Source: Synechococcus sp. RSCCF101
GTDB taxonomy: Bacteria; Cyanobacteriota; Cyanobacteriia; PCC-6307; Cyanobiaceae
Length of the DNA stretch: 64,000 bases
Assembly (NCBI RefSeq): GCF_008807075.1
Contig: NZ_CP035632.1
Location: forward strand, 682,001 to 746,000
Reading direction: 5' to 3'
Made by a program: the position numbers and the translations under genes. The notes beneath the pieces are model-generated. The model saw nothing but the letters and a program-made list of their open reading frames with translations. It made no database searches and had not been told where the DNA came from. The stretch's first letter is position 1, and each line of letters begins with the position of its first letter. Positions 50,215 through 64,000 of this stretch are shown here, piece after piece.

Positions 50215-50316
50215 ATCGGCCTGCGCCACAGGCGACGCCCCCGCTTGACAGGCCAGGGGGGGCCGCCAACATCACGGTTGCTTTGGCAGGGTTGTCGCGC
50301 GCCTGATCCCACACCG

Positions 50317-51429
50317 ATGGAGGAGCTCCGCCGCCCGCAGCCCACAGCAACCGGAGTGCGGCGCATCGGTTGGCTGGCCCGCGCTGCGGCCGGTCTGGCC
50401 CTGCTGGTGGCACTGCCGGTGGAGAGCTCCGCCCTGCCCCTGTCCCGCGGCGACCGGGTGCGGCTGGACGTGCTCGACGGCGACGAGCAGTTCACCGGCA
50501 CCTACCAGATCGATCTCAACGGCTCCCTGCCGATCCCCCACCTCAGGCCGATTCAGCTGGAGGGCCTCGAGCCCCACGAAGCGGAGGCCGCCATCGAACG
50601 GGCCCTCGTGGATCAGGGATTCGTGCAGCCCGCCTATGCGGATGTGGGGCTGGAGGTGCAGCTGTGGGCGCCGGTGGATGTGTTCGTCAAGGGCCAGGTG
50701 TTCGACCCCGGCCGGGTCACGATCAATGCCATCGACCCGGAACAGCAGTTCAGCGACGTGCCCCAGCGCAGCGGCGATTCAGCCCCGGGCCGCTTTCTGA
50801 CCACGGCGATCCGAAACGCCGGTGGGGTGCGGCCGGACGCGGACCTGACGGCGGTGGAGCTGATCCGCAGCGGTCGCCGCTCCCTGCATGACGTGAGCGG
50901 TGTGTTCTCGGGTGAACCGTTCCGGGATGTGCCCCTGCTGGCAGGGGACCAGGTCATCGTTCCGGTGTCGGCCAACCCCAATCCCGACATCATGCGCACC
51001 TCCCAGATCTCTCCGCCGGGGGTGAAGGTGTACCTGTCCAACCTCACCGAACCCACTCAGAGCAATGCTCTGTCCGGATCCAAGGAAGCCACCGGTTTCT
51101 CCTACGGATCCCGGCTGGTGCAGGCCATCACCAGTGCCGCCTGCGTGGGGGGCTCGAATGTGAACAAGGACCGCTTCGTGGTGCACGGCCGGGCCAACCG
51201 CGCCACGGGGGAGGTGTACTGGATGCGCCGACCGATCGAGGATGTGCTGAAGGGCACCACGGCGGCGAATGGGGAGACCAACAACCCGCTGCTGATGAAC
51301 AACGATGTGGTGGCCTGTTACGACAGCCGCTTCATCAGCCTGCGTGAGGTGGGCCGCGCCGTGAGCCTGATTCTCTCACCGGTGAATCTGATGCGGGGCT
51401 CCTTCTTCTGGCCGCGCTTTCAGCAATGA
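50317..51429 (+). CDS. Wza-like polysaccharide export protein
   Basis: About 370 residues from ATG 50317. N-terminal signal-like segment (AAAGLALLVALPVESSALP), then the Poly_export domain (LSRGDRVRLDVLDGDEQFTGTYQIDLNG and IPHLRPIQLEGL), SLBB-like repeats (VFVKGQVFDPGRV), and a C-terminal part. No lipobox Cys is apparent. Forms the outer-membrane EPS channel. Overlaps the next gene by four bases. Confidence 0.82.
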   Translation: MEELRRPQPTATGVRRIGWLARAAAGLALLVALPVESSALPLSRGDRVRLDVLDGDEQFTGTYQIDLNGSLPIPHLRPIQLEGLEPHEAEAAIERALVDQGFVQPAYADVGLEVQLWAPVDVFVKGQVFDPGRVTINAIDPEQQFSDVPQRSGDSAPGRFLTTAIRNAGGVRPDADLTAVELIRSGRRSLHDVSGVFSGEPFRDVPLLAGDQVIVPVSANPNPDIMRTSQISPPGVKVYLSNLTEPTQSNALSGSKEATGFSYGSRLVQAITSAACVGGSNVNKDRFVVHGRANRATGEVYWMRRPIEDVLKGTTAANGETNNPLLMNNDVVACYDSRFISLREVGRAVSLILSPVNLMRGSFFWPRFQQ

Positions 51430-53432
51430 GCCTCCGGGTTCTTGTTGCCGACCGGGATGAGGACCATTCCGCCCTGGCGGCACGCGTCCTGGCCGGGGAG
51501 CGCCGCGTGTCGCGCTATGGCTTCGCCGCCAGCGCCGAACGCCTGATCGCCAAGCTCGCCAAGGGCTGGGATCTGATCCTGCTCGATGAACAGCTGCCGG
51601 GGTTGGAGCTGGCGGAACTGGGCCGCCAGATGGGCCGCCTGCCGCTCGCTCCGGCCGTGCTGCTGCTGGTCGATGGGGAGGAAACCCCCGGAACGGGTGA
51701 GCGCGTCGCGGACGCCCGACGCTGCGGCCTGCGCTGCCTGGGAACCCTCAGCCGGCCCCTGAACAGTGCCTTCGTTGATGCACTGAGCGAACAGCTCCTG
51801 GCAGCGCCGCCGGCGGAGGTCGTGTCTGCAGCCGCGCCGGAGAAGGGCGCATCAGCAGCCGCGCCGAAGACCCCACCTCCGCCGCCGCAGCCCCCCGAGA
51901 CGCCGGCTGCGCCCGGGTCGCCGGAGCAGACCACGCCCGAGGGAGCCACCGGATCCACCTGGTCGCCCGCAGCGCTCGGTCCTGCGGGGGTGGCCCTGAA
52001 ACGGCTGCTGCGCACCACGGTGATCGTTCCGCGCCGCGCCCTCGGGCCGGTGCTCTTCCGCCTCCGCAATCTGCCCCTGGCGCGCCTGCGCTGGAATCGC
52101 TACGCCATCCTCGCGATCGGAATCAACAGCTTCATCTGGATCACCAGCATCGCCGTGATCCGGCACGCACCGCGCACCTATGTGTCGGAGTGGATCATCA
52201 ACCTGCCCGTGGGCAAGAGCGCATCCAAGGTGTCCCTGCCGGACATCGGCATCGCGGACACCAGCTACGCCGCTGCAGCCGCGACGAGCACCTACGACCC
52301 GCGCGAGAACTTCAAACTGATCTACTTCACCCCCACGGTGCTGGAAGGCGCGGCTGCACTGATGGATTGGGAACCGGATGCGGTGGAGAAACCGATCATC
52401 ACCCTGGTGGAGAACACCACCGCGATGGAACTCTCGGTGTCGGCCAACGATGCCAAAACCGCCCAGCTGCTGGCGAAAGCCGTGCAGCAATCGTTCAACC
52501 GCCGTCTCAACCAGCTGCGCGATGGTGAGGTGGAAGCCAAGGAGCGTCCCAACCGCTCGATCGCCGATTCGGCCCAGTTGAAGCTGCAGCGGGCCCAGTC
52601 GGACGTGGCGCGCTTCAAGAAGGAGGCCGGTCTCACCTATCCCGACATGCTGCAGGAGCTGAACCTCAACATCGAGAAACTGCGGCAGCAGGCGGTGAGC
52701 GTGCAGGCCGCCTCCCAGCGTTCGGCCGAGGAGGCGGCTGCCCTGGGCTCCTATTTCGGTCTCTCCCCCGGCCAGGCCGCCGAAGCGTTCGAACTCCAGA
52801 ACGACACGGTGTTCCAGGCCGCCTTCAAGGAGTACGGGGCCGCCTCGGCCGAGCTGGGAACGCTTCAGGAGACCCTCGGCCCGAACCATCCGAAGGTGAA
52901 GGCCGCTTTCGCTCGCCAGCAGGGCGCCTTCAACAAGGCCAGCACGAGAGCGGAGGCACTCATCGGGCAGCGCCTCGATGGCGTGAGCCTCAGTCGTCTC
53001 TCGGTGCGTGAAGGCCCCACCGGACGCGGCAATCTGCTGGAGACCCTGGTGCAGCAATCGGCGGAGGCCCGCTCACGCCTGCAGGAGTACACCACCCTGG
53101 AGGAGCGCATCAGCGAGCTGGAAGGCCGCCTCACCGATGGAGCCGAAACCCTGGCGGAACTGGAGGTGCTGCAGCGGGATGTGGAAATCGCCGAGGCGAT
53201 CTTCGCCTCCACCCTCGCCAAGATCGACCTGGGTCAGGCCGAACGCTTCGCCGCCTATCCGATCGTTCAGGTGATCGAGCCGCCCAACCTGCCGCGCAAG
53301 GCCGCCTCTCCCAAGCCCGCCCTGGTGCTGGCCGGCTCGATGATGGCCACCATCCTCAGCTCGGTCGCCCTCTGGCTGCTCTGGTCGCGCAAGCCCTGGT
53401 TGCGCAGCCTGTCCCGGTGGGTGGACACCTGA
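51426..53432 (+). CDS. Wzz/Wzc-type polysaccharide co-polymerase with an N-terminal pseudo-receiver domain
   Basis: 668 residues. Residues 1-125 look like a response-regulator receiver (RVLVADRDED, acceptor-like Asp54 in LLDEQLPG, and a LSRPL segment where the family has K-P). The second acidic residue is Arg10 and the conserved Lys is Arg110, so normal phosphorylation is doubtful. Residues 130-190 form a Pro-rich linker; a first membrane helix near 225-245 (ILAIGINSFIWITSIAVI); a long periplasmic part with coiled coils (about 370-590); and a second helix near the end (LAGSMMATILSSVALWLLW). There is no tyrosine-kinase domain. It should set chain length and pair with the Wza-like protein, whose stop overlaps its ATG. 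Confidence 0.8.
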   Translation: MSLRVLVADRDEDHSALAARVLAGERRVSRYGFAASAERLIAKLAKGWDLILLDEQLPGLELAELGRQMGRLPLAPAVLLLVDGEETPGTGERVADARRCGLRCLGTLSRPLNSAFVDALSEQLLAAPPAEVVSAAAPEKGASAAAPKTPPPPPQPPETPAAPGSPEQTTPEGATGSTWSPAALGPAGVALKRLLRTTVIVPRRALGPVLFRLRNLPLARLRWNRYAILAIGINSFIWITSIAVIRHAPRTYVSEWIINLPVGKSASKVSLPDIGIADTSYAAAAATSTYDPRENFKLIYFTPTVLEGAAALMDWEPDAVEKPIITLVENTTAMELSVSANDAKTAQLLAKAVQQSFNRRLNQLRDGEVEAKERPNRSIADSAQLKLQRAQSDVARFKKEAGLTYPDMLQELNLNIEKLRQQAVSVQAASQRSAEEAAALGSYFGLSPGQAAEAFELQNDTVFQAAFKEYGAASAELGTLQETLGPNHPKVKAAFARQQGAFNKASTRAEALIGQRLDGVSLSRLSVREGPTGRGNLLETLVQQSAEARSRLQEYTTLEERISELEGRLTDGAETLAELEVLQRDVEIAEAIFASTLAKIDLGQAERFAAYPIVQVIEPPNLPRKAASPKPALVLAGSMMATILSSVALWLLWSRKPWLRSLSRWVDT

Positions 53433-59641: not shown

Positions 59642-60280
59642 ATGGTCTCCGTTCCCTACCGCCACAACGCTCGCCAGCAGGCCGTCCTTGACCTGCTCGA
59701 ACGCAACTACCGGCAGCGCTCCCTGGTGCATGTGGGTGCGGGCAATGCCGTGCCCCTCCTGAAGGACAGCCTCTGGCTGGTGGTGCGCGGCATGGTGAAA
59801 CTGGCTGCCCTGTCCGTGCACGGAGACGAACTGCTGCTCGGTCTGGCCGGTCCGAACGAACCCTTCGGGGAACCCCTGAGCACCGTGGAGGCCTACGAGG
59901 CGGTGGCGCTGACCGACAGCGATCTGCTCTGCCTTCCCTGCGCGGACATCGAGAACAGCCCCCATCTGGCGCTCGCCCTCTGGAAGGCCACATCCGCCCG
60001 TTACCGGCAGTCGGAAGCGCTGCTGGCCCTGCTCGGCCTGAGGCGGGTGGAGGAACGGGTGCGGGGCTTTCTGCAGTTGCTGGCGCGGGATTACGGCACG
60101 CCCTGCCAGGGAGGGCTGAGGCTCACGATGCGGCTCACCCACCAGGACATCGCCGGCGCCCTCTCCACCACCCGGGTGACCGTGACCCGGGTGATCGGGA
60201 TCCTCAGGGACCAGAACGTGATCGCCTTCGACAACGAGCGTCACCTGATCGTGCTCCAGCCCCAGCGGCGCGCCCGCTGA
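59642..60280 (+). CDS. ptrA: Crp/Fnr-family regulator, PtrA
   Basis: 212 residues: N-terminal cyclic-nucleotide-binding-like beta-roll without the cAMP-contacting residues, dimer helix, C-terminal helix-turn-helix (LTHQDIAGALSTTRVTVTRVIGIL). In marine Synechococcus the Crp-type regulator next to pstS is PtrA, a second-tier activator of the phosphate-stress response under PhoB control. The gene order and the Pho-box-like sites support this assignment. Confidence 0.78.
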   Translation: MVSVPYRHNARQQAVLDLLERNYRQRSLVHVGAGNAVPLLKDSLWLVVRGMVKLAALSVHGDELLLGLAGPNEPFGEPLSTVEAYEAVALTDSDLLCLPCADIENSPHLALALWKATSARYRQSEALLALLGLRRVEERVRGFLQLLARDYGTPCQGGLRLTMRLTHQDIAGALSTTRVTVTRVIGILRDQNVIAFDNERHLIVLQPQRRAR

Positions 60281-60282
60281 GC

Positions 60283-61017
60283 TCAGGGGAAATGCAGGGT
60301 CAGCAGGGAGACGTCGTCGTCGAATCCCGCCCGGCCCATCCGCCCCTCCACCTCCTGCATCAGGGCTGATGGGTCGGCCGGCCTGCCGCCGCGGGCCGCC
60401 TCACCGTCGCGCTCGCGCAGCAGATCCACCAGGGCGGTGAGGTTCCAGTCGTCAGGCGCATCCGCGCACTCATAGAGCCCGTCACTGAACAGGTACAACC
60501 GGCTGCCGTGATGAACGGCCACATCGGCGCCGCGGAAGCGCAGGTCCGGCACCATGCCGATGGCCGGGGTGCGGCAGCTCAGGGCGCGGGCCGTCAGGCT
60601 CTCGCGGGCCGGGCGGGAGCGTTCCCAGAAGCGCAACCCCACGCTGCGGCGCACCGGCTCCATCAGGTAGGCGGGGGGATGGCCGGCGCTGGAGTAGCGC
60701 AGGATGCGGCGTTCGCTGTCGAACACGGCGAACCAGATGGCGAAGGTGCTCAGGCCATGGCCGCGGGAGCAGAGGTCCTGGTTCATGCACTGCAGCAGCG
60801 CCTCGGGCGGAAGGGGTGAGACCCCCGTGCAGAGCACGGCCCGCATGTAGGCCCGGATCAGGGGGCAGAACCCCTGCACCGCGTCGCCGTGGCCGGTGAC
60901 GTCCACCAGGTAGAAGGCGAGCAGGTGCGGTGAGAGGGGAACCACCTCGGCGAAATCGCCGCCACCGAGGGAACCCGAATAATGAAAGGCACAGCGCAGG
61001 TCAACGCTGTTGCCCAT
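60283..61017 (-). CDS. PP2C/SpoIIE-type serine phosphatase
   Basis: About 244 residues from ATG 61017 (TTG 61044 possible). Catalytic domain only: GGGDFAEV near the start, LVDVTGHGDAVQGF, LYLFSDGLYE, and GFDDDVSLLTL, which supply the Asp residues of the metal centre. There is no sensor, receiver or HAMP part. Such phosphatases (RsbU/SpoIIE/IcfG) dephosphorylate STAS-domain proteins; a STAS domain is encoded 2 kb away (63141). Ends two bases from ptrA on the opposite strand. Confidence 0.85.
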   Translation of the reverse strand: MGNSVDLRCAFHYSGSLGGGDFAEVVPLSPHLLAFYLVDVTGHGDAVQGFCPLIRAYMRAVLCTGVSPLPPEALLQCMNQDLCSRGHGLSTFAIWFAVFDSERRILRYSSAGHPPAYLMEPVRRSVGLRFWERSRPARESLTARALSCRTPAIGMVPDLRFRGADVAVHHGSRLYLFSDGLYECADAPDDWNLTALVDLLRERDGEAARGGRPADPSALMQEVEGRMGRAGFDDDVSLLTLHFP

Positions 61018-61113
61018 CCAGGCGGGAACGCGGCCCAACAACACAGCCGGAGGAGCCGCCGTGGCGGCGCAGGAGCGATACCGCCATCCTGCAGGCGGAG
61101 TGGGAGCACGCCC

Positions 61114-62070
61114 ATGGCCCAGGTCGCGGTGGTGATCCCGGCCTACAACGCGGCCGCCACGCTCGAGGGGACCCTGGCCAGCGTGCGCGACCAGACCCTG
61201 ACGGACTGGGAACTGGTGGTGGTGGACGACGGCTCCATCGATGGGACGGCCGAGCTGGTGCGCGGCTGGAGCGACAGGGATCCGCGCATTCAGCTGCTGC
61301 AGTGTTCCAACGGTGGCGTCTCGCGGGCCCGCAACACCGGCGTGGCCGCCACCTCAGCCCCGCTGATCGCGTTTCTCGACGCGGACGATCTGTGGAGACC
61401 CGCCAAGCTGGCCGCCCACGTGGCTCAGTTCGCGGCTCACACCCAGCTCGGAGTGGCCTTCAGCCGGGTCGCCTTTCTCAGGGCCGATGGCCAGCCCACG
61501 GGCGTGATCTCCAGCGCCCGGCTGCACCGGCTGCGTCCGCAGCACTTCCTTGAGGAGAACCCCACCTGCACCACCTCGAGCTGGGTGGTGCGGCGCTGCG
61601 TGTTCAACAGCGTCGGCGGCTTCACCGTGGGCATGCAGTACAGCGAGGATCTCGAGTGGCTCTTCCGCGCCAGCCTCCAGCCCGGCTGGGAGATCGAGGG
61701 TCTGAAGGCCCCCCTCACCGGCTACCGCACCCAGGAGGGGGGCCTCTCCGCTGATCTGGAGCGGATGGAGGACGGCTGGCAGGCCCTGATGGATCGGGCC
61801 CGCACGATCGCGCCCGATGTGGTGGCCCGCCACGGAGCTCACGCCGAAGCGGTGCATCTGCGCTACCTCGCCCGACGCGCGATCCGGCTGCAGCAGCCGG
61901 CCCGGCGCGTCTGGGGCTTTCTCTCCCGCAGCCTGCGCTGCAGCCCCTGGCTGCCGCTGCAGGAGCCCCGCCGCACCCTGCTCACGATCGCGGCGGCCCT
62001 GCTGGTGAGCCTGCGCGAGCGGCTGACACGCCTGAGGCGCGGCGTTGCCGGCCCCAGACTCCGTTCGTAG
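61114..62070 (+). CDS. Family 2 glycosyltransferase
   Basis: 318 residues, ATG 61114. VAVVIPAYNAAATLEGTL, VDDGSIDGT, ARNTGV and FLDADDLWR form the GT-A core; C-terminal LRYLARRA and a hydrophobic tail. It is a paralogue of the GT2 at 48293-49330 with the same domain layout; the two bracket the EPS locus in opposite directions. Starts 96 bases from the divergent phosphatase gene. Confidence 0.85.
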   Translation: MAQVAVVIPAYNAAATLEGTLASVRDQTLTDWELVVVDDGSIDGTAELVRGWSDRDPRIQLLQCSNGGVSRARNTGVAATSAPLIAFLDADDLWRPAKLAAHVAQFAAHTQLGVAFSRVAFLRADGQPTGVISSARLHRLRPQHFLEENPTCTTSSWVVRRCVFNSVGGFTVGMQYSEDLEWLFRASLQPGWEIEGLKAPLTGYRTQEGGLSADLERMEDGWQALMDRARTIAPDVVARHGAHAEAVHLRYLARRAIRLQQPARRVWGFLSRSLRCSPWLPLQEPRRTLLTIAAALLVSLRERLTRLRRGVAGPRLRS

Positions 62071-62166
62071 CCTGCGGCCAGAGGAGAGGAGAGCATCCTT
62101 GAACCGCAGCGATAGGGCCACCGAAGGGGCCTGCGGACCCTCAAAACGCCTCTGCCCGGATCAGCC

Positions 62167-62610
62167 ATGAAGCTGCTGCTGGTCTGCTCGGCGGGAGGAC
62201 AGTTCCGGGCGCTGCATCAGCTGACCGACTTCTGGTCGCAGCACGAGCGGGTCTGGGTGACGCTGCCGACGGACGTGACCCGCCATCAGCTCGACGGCGA
62301 AACGGTGGTGTGGGCCCACGGCCCCACGCACCGCAACATCCCCAACCTGCTGCGGAACCTCGGCCTGGCCTTCAAGGTGCTGCTACGGGAGCGCCCCGAT
62401 CTGGTGATCAGCACCGGAACGGCAGTGGCGGTGCCGTTCATCGGCCTGGCCCGCGTGCTGGGCAGCCGCACGGTGTTCATCGAATCGATCACCCGCACCC
62501 GGTCGCTCTCGCTCTCGGCACGCCTCTGCCTGCCCTTTCTCTCCAGGCTCTACGTGCACTGGCCCCAGCTGCAGGCGCTGCACCCCCGCAGCATCCTGAT
62601 CGAACACTGA
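62167..62610 (+). CDS. Alg14-like glycosyltransferase subunit (PssD/CpsF type)
   Basis: 147 residues. LLLVCSAGGQFRALHQL is the hallmark N-terminus, with RPDLVISTGTAVAVPFIGLARVLG and FIESITRTRSLSLSARL. Membrane-anchoring part of a two-component sugar transferase whose partner is the next gene, as Alg14-Alg13. Confidence 0.88.
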   Translation: MKLLLVCSAGGQFRALHQLTDFWSQHERVWVTLPTDVTRHQLDGETVVWAHGPTHRNIPNLLRNLGLAFKVLLRERPDLVISTGTAVAVPFIGLARVLGSRTVFIESITRTRSLSLSARLCLPFLSRLYVHWPQLQALHPRSILIEH

Positions 62611-62658
62611 GGTGAACCGGCCCATGAACGGCACTGCACAACCGGAGGCGACGGTCCG

Positions 62659-63144
62659 ATGATTCTCGTGGCGGCGGGCAACGACCCCTATCCCTTCGAT
62701 CGGCTGATGGAGTGGGTCGGCCTGATCATCCAGCGTCAGCTGTTCGGCAGTGAGGTGGTGATCCAGATCGGCCGCTGCGGCGTGATTCCCGAGGGAGCCC
62801 GCATCTACCGGGACGTGGACAGTTACCACTTCGACCGCCTGCTGGAGGAGGCGGAGCTGGTGATCAGTCACTGCGGCGAGGATGTGCTCGGCCTGCTGGA
62901 GCAGCGGAGCATGCCCTTCGTGCTGGTGCCCCGCGCGGCCCGCTACGGCGAGCAGGTGGACGACCACCAGGTGGAGCTGGGCCGCGCCCTGCAGGAGCTC
63001 GGGGTGCCGGTGGCCTGGAGCCCCACCGACCTGCTGCGCTTCCTGAGCGAGCCCAGGCGCTCCGCCCTCGAGGATCTGCCCAGCCGGTCCTCCGCCTTCC
63101 TGTGCCGCAGCCTCGAGCAGTACGCCGGCCGGATCGAACGATGA
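62659..63144 (+). CDS. Alg13-like glycosyltransferase subunit (PssE type)
   Basis: 161 residues. Family start MILVAAGNDPYPFDRL and the UDP-sugar-binding ISHCGEDVLGLLEQ (usual HAG becomes HCG). Forms the catalytic unit with the Alg14-like protein, transferring a sugar to the lipid-linked primer. The next ATG overlaps its stop by four bases. Confidence 0.87.
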   Translation: MILVAAGNDPYPFDRLMEWVGLIIQRQLFGSEVVIQIGRCGVIPEGARIYRDVDSYHFDRLLEEAELVISHCGEDVLGLLEQRSMPFVLVPRAARYGEQVDDHQVELGRALQELGVPVAWSPTDLLRFLSEPRRSALEDLPSRSSAFLCRSLEQYAGRIER

Positions 63145-64000
63145 GCCTGATCCCCGACCATCCCTACCTGGTGAGCGAGGCCGGCGGCAGCCTCATCATC
63201 ACCGTGCCTCAGCTGCTCACCGTCAATGAGGCCGATGCCTTCCGCTCCTTCCTGGAGGAACGACTGAACGGCGCGGAGGGGCTGAAACGCCTGATCCTGG
63301 ATTGCGCCCAGACCCGCATGATCGACAGCAGCGGCGTCGGCTCCCTGGTGATGCTGCTGCGGCGATGCAATCAGGCCGGCCTCGCCATGGAGCTCTGGAG
63401 CGTGAATGACCAGCTGAAGCTGGCACTCTCCCTGGCCGGGCTGGACCAGATGCTGACCCTGGTGGACGGCTCCGATGCCATCACTCAGAGCACGCTGGAC
63501 GCGGTGCCGGAGCGGGGCTCGCTCACCCACCCCTCGGTTCGCTGCTGGCCCAAACGGGTGATCGACGTGGTGGGGTCGGGCATCGGCCTGGTGATCACGG
63601 CTCTGCTGTTCATTCCGATCGCCATCGCCATCCGCTCCGAGGGCAAGGGCCCGATCCTGTTCAGCCAGACCCGCTGCGGGCTGATGGGGCGCCGCTTCCG
63701 GCTGTGGAAGTTCCGCTCGATGGTCACCGATGCCGAGGCGCTGAAGCACACGGTGACCAATCAGGCCAGCGGCGCGATCTTCAAGAACGAGAACGATCCC
63801 CGCATCACCCGGGTCGGGCGGTTTCTGCGCCGCACCAGCCTCGATGAGCTGCCCCAGTTCTGGAATGTCTTCATCGGCGACATGAGCCTGATCGGGACCC
63901 GGCCGCCCACACCCGATGAGGTGGAGATCTACAACGTGCCCGAATGGCGGCGGTTTGATGTGCGGCCCGGCCTCTCCGGTGAGTGGCAGGTGTACGGGCG
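63141..64000 (+). CDS. STAS domain fused to a polyprenyl-phosphate sugar transferase (partial)
   Basis: The frame is open to the end of the window (286 codons seen). Residues 1-115 are a STAS domain with the phosphorylatable Ser63 in MIDSSGVGSLV, the anti-anti-sigma signature. A membrane helix follows (about 139-163), then the initiating sugar transferase: LWKFRSM, NDPRITRVGRFLRRTSLDELPQFWNV, GDMSLIGTRPPTP and RPGLSG. This enzyme starts EPS repeat-unit assembly. A STAS domain with an intact DSSG on a glycosyltransferase is unusual and suggests control by Ser phosphorylation. The last codons (after WQVYG) lie outside the window. Confidence 0.88.
   Translation, partial: MSLIPDHPYLVSEAGGSLIITVPQLLTVNEADAFRSFLEERLNGAEGLKRLILDCAQTRMIDSSGVGSLVMLLRRCNQAGLAMELWSVNDQLKLALSLAGLDQMLTLVDGSDAITQSTLDAVPERGSLTHPSVRCWPKRVIDVVGSGIGLVITALLFIPIAIAIRSEGKGPILFSQTRCGLMGRRFRLWKFRSMVTDAEALKHTVTNQASGAIFKNENDPRITRVGRFLRRTSLDELPQFWNVFIGDMSLIGTRPPTPDEVEIYNVPEWRRFDVRPGLSGEWQVYG

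Follow-up and report, generated by a model that had tools for sequence, protein, structure and literature searches.

A STAS-fused initiating phosphoglycosyl transferase as the probable output of a partner-switching module in cyanobacterial exopolysaccharide loci

In an exopolysaccharide (EPS) locus of Synechococcus sp. RSCCF101, the transferase predicted to initiate polymer assembly begins with a STAS domain, which raises the question of what a domain otherwise typical of partner switches is doing on the first enzyme of a sugar polymer. The locus runs past the end of the stretch of DNA that we analyzed (hereafter, the window; 64,000 nucleotides, G000:C1:682001-746000, from a single-contig genome of 2.98 Mb). 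An initial annotation had proposed that partner switching acts here on the transferase itself, through a SpoIIE-like phosphatase encoded nearby and a kinase encoded elsewhere. Having compared the locus with its relatives, we think it probable on balance that these loci encode a partner-switching module with the EPS-initiating enzyme, not a sigma factor, as its output; a switch used for transcription in many bacteria would here probably control the start of a sugar polymer directly. The proposal gains from a conserved and coupled kinase, from the recurrence of SpoIIE and lone STAS genes, and from an invariant acceptor serine (Ser63); the expectation of a distant kinase was mistaken, and the role given to the window's own phosphatase is less certain than proposed.

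The fusion gene extends 136 bases beyond the window end, and its ATG, at position 63141, shares bases with the stop codon of the Alg13-like gene before it (Table 1). Searches of the PDB with a profile of 17 such fusions matched the N-terminal part to TM1442 (4e-14) and SpoIIAA (6e-12), and this part combines the STAS fold with a Ser in the DS[SC][GA] motif. The C-terminal phosphoglycosyl transferase (PGT) part matched WbaP (2e-51) and bacillosamine-phosphate transferases (2e-39); it is complete (positions 1-178 of the 179 of PF02397 are aligned), and with a hydrophobic segment peaking at residue 146 it belongs to the monotopic PGT class. Thus, the initial annotation was right to recognize an initiating sugar transferase with an intact STAS domain (DSSG, Ser63). 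An identity with HepC of the HEP island was considered and rejected, as the HepC model scores the protein (P0001) well below its cut-off; in the literature on HepC, we found nothing about a STAS domain.

Contrary to the expectation of a distant kinase, a search for an RsbW-like protein found one directly after the fusion, just outside the window: it is a HATPase_c_2 gene whose ATG overlaps the fusion TGA. To determine how general this linkage is, we searched 386 genomes of the phylum with the profile of 17 fusions and with a profile of 12 kinases, of which the latter matches the RsbW structure in the PDB (2.6e-9). The fusion, which the initial annotation had suggested seeking in other genomes, was recovered 97 times in 87 of the 386 genomes (96 full or near-full length and one partial). 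Among the kinase matches listed, which make the count a lower bound, a kinase lies within 1 kb of the fusion in at least 40 of the 97 cases, with at least 39 of these kinases encoded downstream in the same orientation and the kinase frame often overlapping or almost touching the fusion. STAS-less PGTs recovered by the same search have no kinase among these matches within 1 kb (0/51) or even within 20 kb (0/51), a contrast with a Fisher P value of 2e-9, not corrected for relatedness. Chance clustering is rejected by this PGT-only control together with the conservation of the pair, and the association is both old and specific. All 68 intact fusions likewise retain the predicted phospho-acceptor (56 with DSSG, 11 with DSCG, and 1 with DSSA), and both D62 and S63 are invariant in the 17 aligned fusions.

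The remaining components of a switch recur in the relatives' loci. The locus is common to the window genome and Synechococcus sp. RedBA-s, and all 12 Cyanobiaceae relatives that carry the fusion have the gene order GT2-GT2-Alg14-Alg13-fusion-kinase, with Wzx upstream in most. The contig bearing the fusion also encodes, in all 12, a SpoIIE protein of ~400 amino acids (aa), at a distance of 5 to 17 kb in eleven and 42 kb in one (G051). Its gene and a lone STAS gene converge in all 11 cases examined, and an N-terminal receiver was confirmed by Pfam in the four proteins checked (L143, L246, L249, and L254). Elsewhere, the linkage is tighter: fusion, kinase, lone STAS, and SpoIIE genes all fall within ~3 kb in the family f7 loci L206-L209 and in L211, the same four genes occupy ~3 kb in rearranged form in L235, and L205 has the kinase and SpoIIE. 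Genes for kinase, STAS substrate, and phosphatase are thus linked, as in partner-switching systems. No sigma factor was seen among the genes beside the fusion or in the loci whose gene order was mapped, although no systematic search for sigma factors was made. Partner switching on the PGT would be the simplest account of an EPS locus in which a STAS domain that always keeps its phospho-acceptor occurs together with a coupled kinase, with a phosphatase, and with a competing STAS protein.

Several further observations concern individual fusion loci. In L136 and L144, the fusion is broken (by a frameshift in one and an in-frame TAG in the other) next to an intact kinase. Family f7 includes STAS-PGT copies, such as L225-L231, in which DSSG is intact and neither a kinase nor a phosphatase is encoded within ~9 kb; by eye, the neighbors of L225 and L228 resemble no EPS genes. 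In one kinase-less locus, a lone STAS gene (L240:10591-10938) follows the fusion after 30 bases, and Symploca encodes a triple fusion of a WecG glycosyltransferase, STAS, and PGT (L054:7610-9463, minus strand) beside a second STAS-PGT gene.

From these arrangements, we infer the following mechanism. The product of the next gene, the RsbW-type kinase, would bind the STAS domain carried by the membrane-bound PGT and phosphorylate Ser63, thereby setting how active the PGT is or where it sits in the assembly complex. The SpoIIE phosphatase, receiver-controlled in the relatives and stand-alone in the window, would dephosphorylate the fused STAS domain, the lone STAS protein competing for the same kinase, or both. 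By analogy with SypA (see below), the unphosphorylated form is probably the on state. In Synechococcus sp. RSCCF101, the kinase may act by binding alone, or phosphorylation may fall to another kinase, such as the RsbW-like gene with intact motifs found elsewhere in the genome (G000:C1:882104); we propose these variants because the window kinase has lost its ATP-binding Asp.

This loss is one of a number of points that weigh against partner switching on the PGT. GHKL kinases that lose the Asp of the G1 box are expected to be impaired in ATP binding. The window kinase keeps the Glu and Asn of the N-box (TEIFSNIARHG), as do all 39 kinases compared, and has S-H-D in place of the D-x-G of the G1 box; [DN]-x-G is retained in the other 38, leaving it the sole exception. 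Its terminal branch is also the longest of the kinase tree (1.65 versus a median of 0.30), and that of the window fusion is long as well (0.54 versus 0.12). With the G1 Asp-x-Gly gone, we class the window protein as kinase-like and those of the relatives as kinases, and the broken motif makes phosphorylation by the window's own protein doubtful. Similarly, the ~28% identity of the window SpoIIE to the relatives' module phosphatases and its lack of a receiver led us to reject it as their orthologue. Across the phylum, 56 of the 97 fusions, second copies of family f7 included, have no kinase within 3 kb among the matches listed; this majority either relies on an unlinked kinase or uses its STAS domain in another way. 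The genomes counted are related and not independent samples, and the correlation between the fusion and kinase trees (r = 0.81 for 38 pairs) is inflated by common species history. Finally, DSSG also recurs as a structural feature in STAS domains generally, and its conservation is therefore no proof of phosphorylation.

The window phosphatase itself agrees with its first description, as it is an intact, stand-alone PP2C/SpoIIE protein with all four metal-binding Asp motifs (GGDF at residue 28, DVTGHG at 48, SDGLYE at 187, and DDDV at 242) encoded 2.1 kb from the fusion, where ~2 kb had been claimed. Its closest PDB sequences are the response regulators 3es2 and 3eq2. The genome carries four SpoIIE genes, and the best counterpart of the relatives' module phosphatase is a different one, a receiver-SpoIIE protein (47% identity over 383 aa) encoded at ~219-220 kb, ~525 kb from the fusion, with a convergent STAS neighbor. 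Since the phosphatase linked in the relatives is this distinct ~400-aa type, the stand-alone enzyme is a candidate partner of the switch, not an established one; either protein or both could act on it. A CRP-family regulator gene (window positions 59642-60280) is convergent with the stand-alone phosphatase gene, 2 bases away.

These departures bear on readings other than partner switching on the PGT. The true substrate of the kinase could be the lone STAS protein, as with RsbV, and the fused STAS domain a docking site in which Ser63 is not a switch: the kinase would sit on the PGT and inhibit it until the dephosphorylated lone STAS protein draws it off. Lone STAS genes do recur beside SpoIIE or the kinase, giving an RsbU-RsbV-RsbW set with the fusion in the place of the sigma factor, and a window kinase apparently unable to use ATP would suit control by binding only. 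However, the invariance of the fusion Ser in all 68 intact cases speaks for more than docking, and in many of the loci with the kinase, a lone STAS gene is absent from the stretch covered; we regard this reading as unlikely. We think it comparably improbable that the module is simply decaying in the window organism, with a pseudokinase left behind, the phosphatase and STAS genes moved ~525 kb away, and the nearby phosphatase unrelated. The frame, N-box, and domain of the kinase are intact (its PF13581 match is over the cut-off), its start codon still shares bases with the stop of the fusion, and 2 kb downstream there is a lone STAS gene carrying a DSRG motif, all of which weighs against decay; the broken G1 motif, the longest kinase branch, and the receiver-SpoIIE and STAS pair at ~219-220 kb weigh for it.

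It is also conceivable that the switch controls transcription through a sigma factor encoded elsewhere, that the fused STAS domain is a scaffold or localizer, and that the genes cluster for co-expression with EPS genes. Classical partner switches do target sigma factors, anion transporters show that a STAS fold can have a structural role, and a review lists the corresponding Anabaena fusion only as a multidomain protein (PMC8256260). A purely transcriptional switch would nevertheless leave it unexplained why the kinase tracks STAS-bearing PGTs (at least 40 of 97, against none of the 51 without STAS) and why its reading frame so often overlaps that of the neighboring fusion or comes close to touching it, and we hold it to be very unlikely.

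Partner switching on an initiating PGT might extend beyond cyanobacteria. We examined 63 non-cyanobacterial loci chosen by PGT similarity alone and found a SpoIIE protein encoded less than 1 kb upstream of the PGT in 31 of them; in 24 of these, the PGT is followed by a STAS gene, mostly after ~2 kb. Four upstream proteins checked by Pfam have the architecture receiver-SpoIIE-HATPase_c_2, and one Hpt gene between such a protein and the PGT was confirmed. Where titled, the hosts are Kiritimatiellae, Lentisphaerae, Victivallales, and Verrucomicrobia, and several other records are rumen metagenome-assembled genomes; the 31 loci represent essentially one lineage and count as one further association, not as 31. 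By gene content, this Verrucomicrobiota-type operon (L078-L128; receiver-SpoIIE-HATPase, Hpt, PGT, and STAS) appears to be a separate-gene version of the cyanobacterial fusion module; L108 adds a sensor hybrid kinase after it. We tentatively raise the possibility of a general and ancient post-translational gate, in which partner switching acts on the initiating PGT with the STAS domain either fused, as in cyanobacteria, or separate, as in the Verrucomicrobiota type. Were this true, SypA-like STAS regulators would act on the initiating PGT encoded in their own locus.

The other genes of the locus are mostly those of EPS assembly (Table 1). The initial annotation had also proposed a receiver-Wzz fusion. 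The Wzz-like protein is present, and the receiver part is weakly supported: its PF00072 matches (E = 0.0045 to 0.018) are below the cut-off, and the relatives' Wzz hits begin at about residue 200, leaving the receiver-like N terminus uncovered. Downstream of the kinase is a gene, overlapping the kinase stop, for a membrane protein without a Pfam match up to an E value of 10, without an NCBIfam match at 0.01, and without relatives among the other loci compared; by eye, it gives the impression of a MASE1-like N terminus and a degenerate GGDEF-like C terminus, and it is possibly a sensor.

Table 1. Features of the EPS locus in window numbering, which is continued past 64,000 for genes beyond the window end
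Feature	Coordinates	Strand	Evidence and remarks
Poly_export (Wza-like) gene, same EPS locus	50245..51429	+	PF02563, E = 1.7e-8; synteny
Wzz-like chain-length protein, weak degenerate receiver-like N terminus	51426..53432	+	PF13807, E = 2.3e-4, below cut-off
Stand-alone SpoIIE-type PP2C Ser phosphatase, 253 aa	60283..61044	-	PF07228, E = 2.6e-26
GT2 glycosyltransferase	61117..62070	+	PF00535, E = 1.8e-33; upstream order kept in relatives
Alg14-like glycosyltransferase subunit	62167..62610	+	PF08660, E = 1.1e-12; synteny with relatives
Alg13/GT28-C-like glycosyltransferase subunit	62659..63144	+	PF04101, E = 1.4e-4, barely over cut-off
STAS-PGT fusion, 331 aa	63141..64000, leaves window, ends at 64136 (L005:7141-8136)	+	
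STAS domain of fusion, residues 13-107	63177..63461	+	PF01740, E = 3.8e-12, over cut-off
Ser63 codon, predicted phosphorylation site	63327..63329	+	First Ser of D62-S63-S64-G65
Monotopic PGT domain of fusion, residues 138-324	63552..64000 in window	+	Bac_transf, PF02397, E = 1.5e-63
RsbW-type kinase (HATPase_c_2)	64136-64621	+	PF13581, E = 1.3e-10, over cut-off
Membrane protein, 496 aa	64618-66108 (L005:8618-10108)	+	Start overlaps kinase stop
Lone STAS protein	66113-66430	-	DSRG motif; 2 kb downstream

The fusion itself is already known. Anabaena all4160, which is listed among the heterocyst envelope polysaccharide genes (PMC4390870), is described as a STAS domain followed by a glycosyltransferase, with a role required for polysaccharide (Wang et al. 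2007, cited in PMC8256260); it shares with our fusion the architecture and the cyanobacterial host and would resemble it in being needed to make a polysaccharide. It differs in that the available portions of these two sources, the review and an expression paper, describe no kinase, phosphatase, or switch for it, and we would place it, by description and not by sequence comparison, among the family f7 copies without an adjacent kinase. In the open-access literature, we found no report of the linked kinase, phosphatase, and STAS genes, nor, beyond the systems compared here, of a switch directed at a PGT or another glycosyltransferase. The cyanobacterial partner switch HmpU/V/W of Nostoc punctiforme is linked to motility and polysaccharide, and the target of HmpV is described as unknown; HmpV differs in being a STAS-only protein, with no PGT fusion described there (Riley et al. 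2018, cited in PMC8256260).

The RsbU/RsbV/RsbW and SpoIIE/SpoIIAA/SpoIIAB systems have the same three activities, and our kinase and STAS profiles resemble RsbW and SpoIIAA, respectively; here, in contrast, the conserved neighbor is an EPS enzyme, and the stretches examined hold no linked sigma factor. In SiaABC-SiaD, HsbA-HsbD, and BgrV-BgrR, as proposed here, phosphorylation of a STAS or STAS-like protein controls an enzyme instead of a sigma factor, but the output there is a diguanylate cyclase controlled through a separate protein, whereas here the STAS domain is fused to an initiating PGT (PMC8457831).

Little is understood about post-translational on/off control of bacterial surface-polysaccharide assembly, and papers on the polysaccharide-linked STAS regulators SypA and HmpV describe their downstream targets as unknown. 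A natural fusion of STAS to the first committed enzyme, with the switch genes linked, names such a target and makes it testable in culturable cyanobacteria. A close parallel is SypA/SypE of Vibrio fischeri, in which a STAS protein of a polysaccharide locus is toggled at a Ser by kinase and phosphatase activities and is active when unphosphorylated (PMC10120452 and PMC4517449); SypA acts below transcription, on a target described as unknown (PMC10120452). The arrangement nearest to syp is the Verrucomicrobiota-type operon, with its separate genes for receiver-SpoIIE-HATPase, PGT, and STAS. SypA is likewise a separate protein, whereas the cyanobacterial STAS domain belongs to the same polypeptide as the first enzyme.

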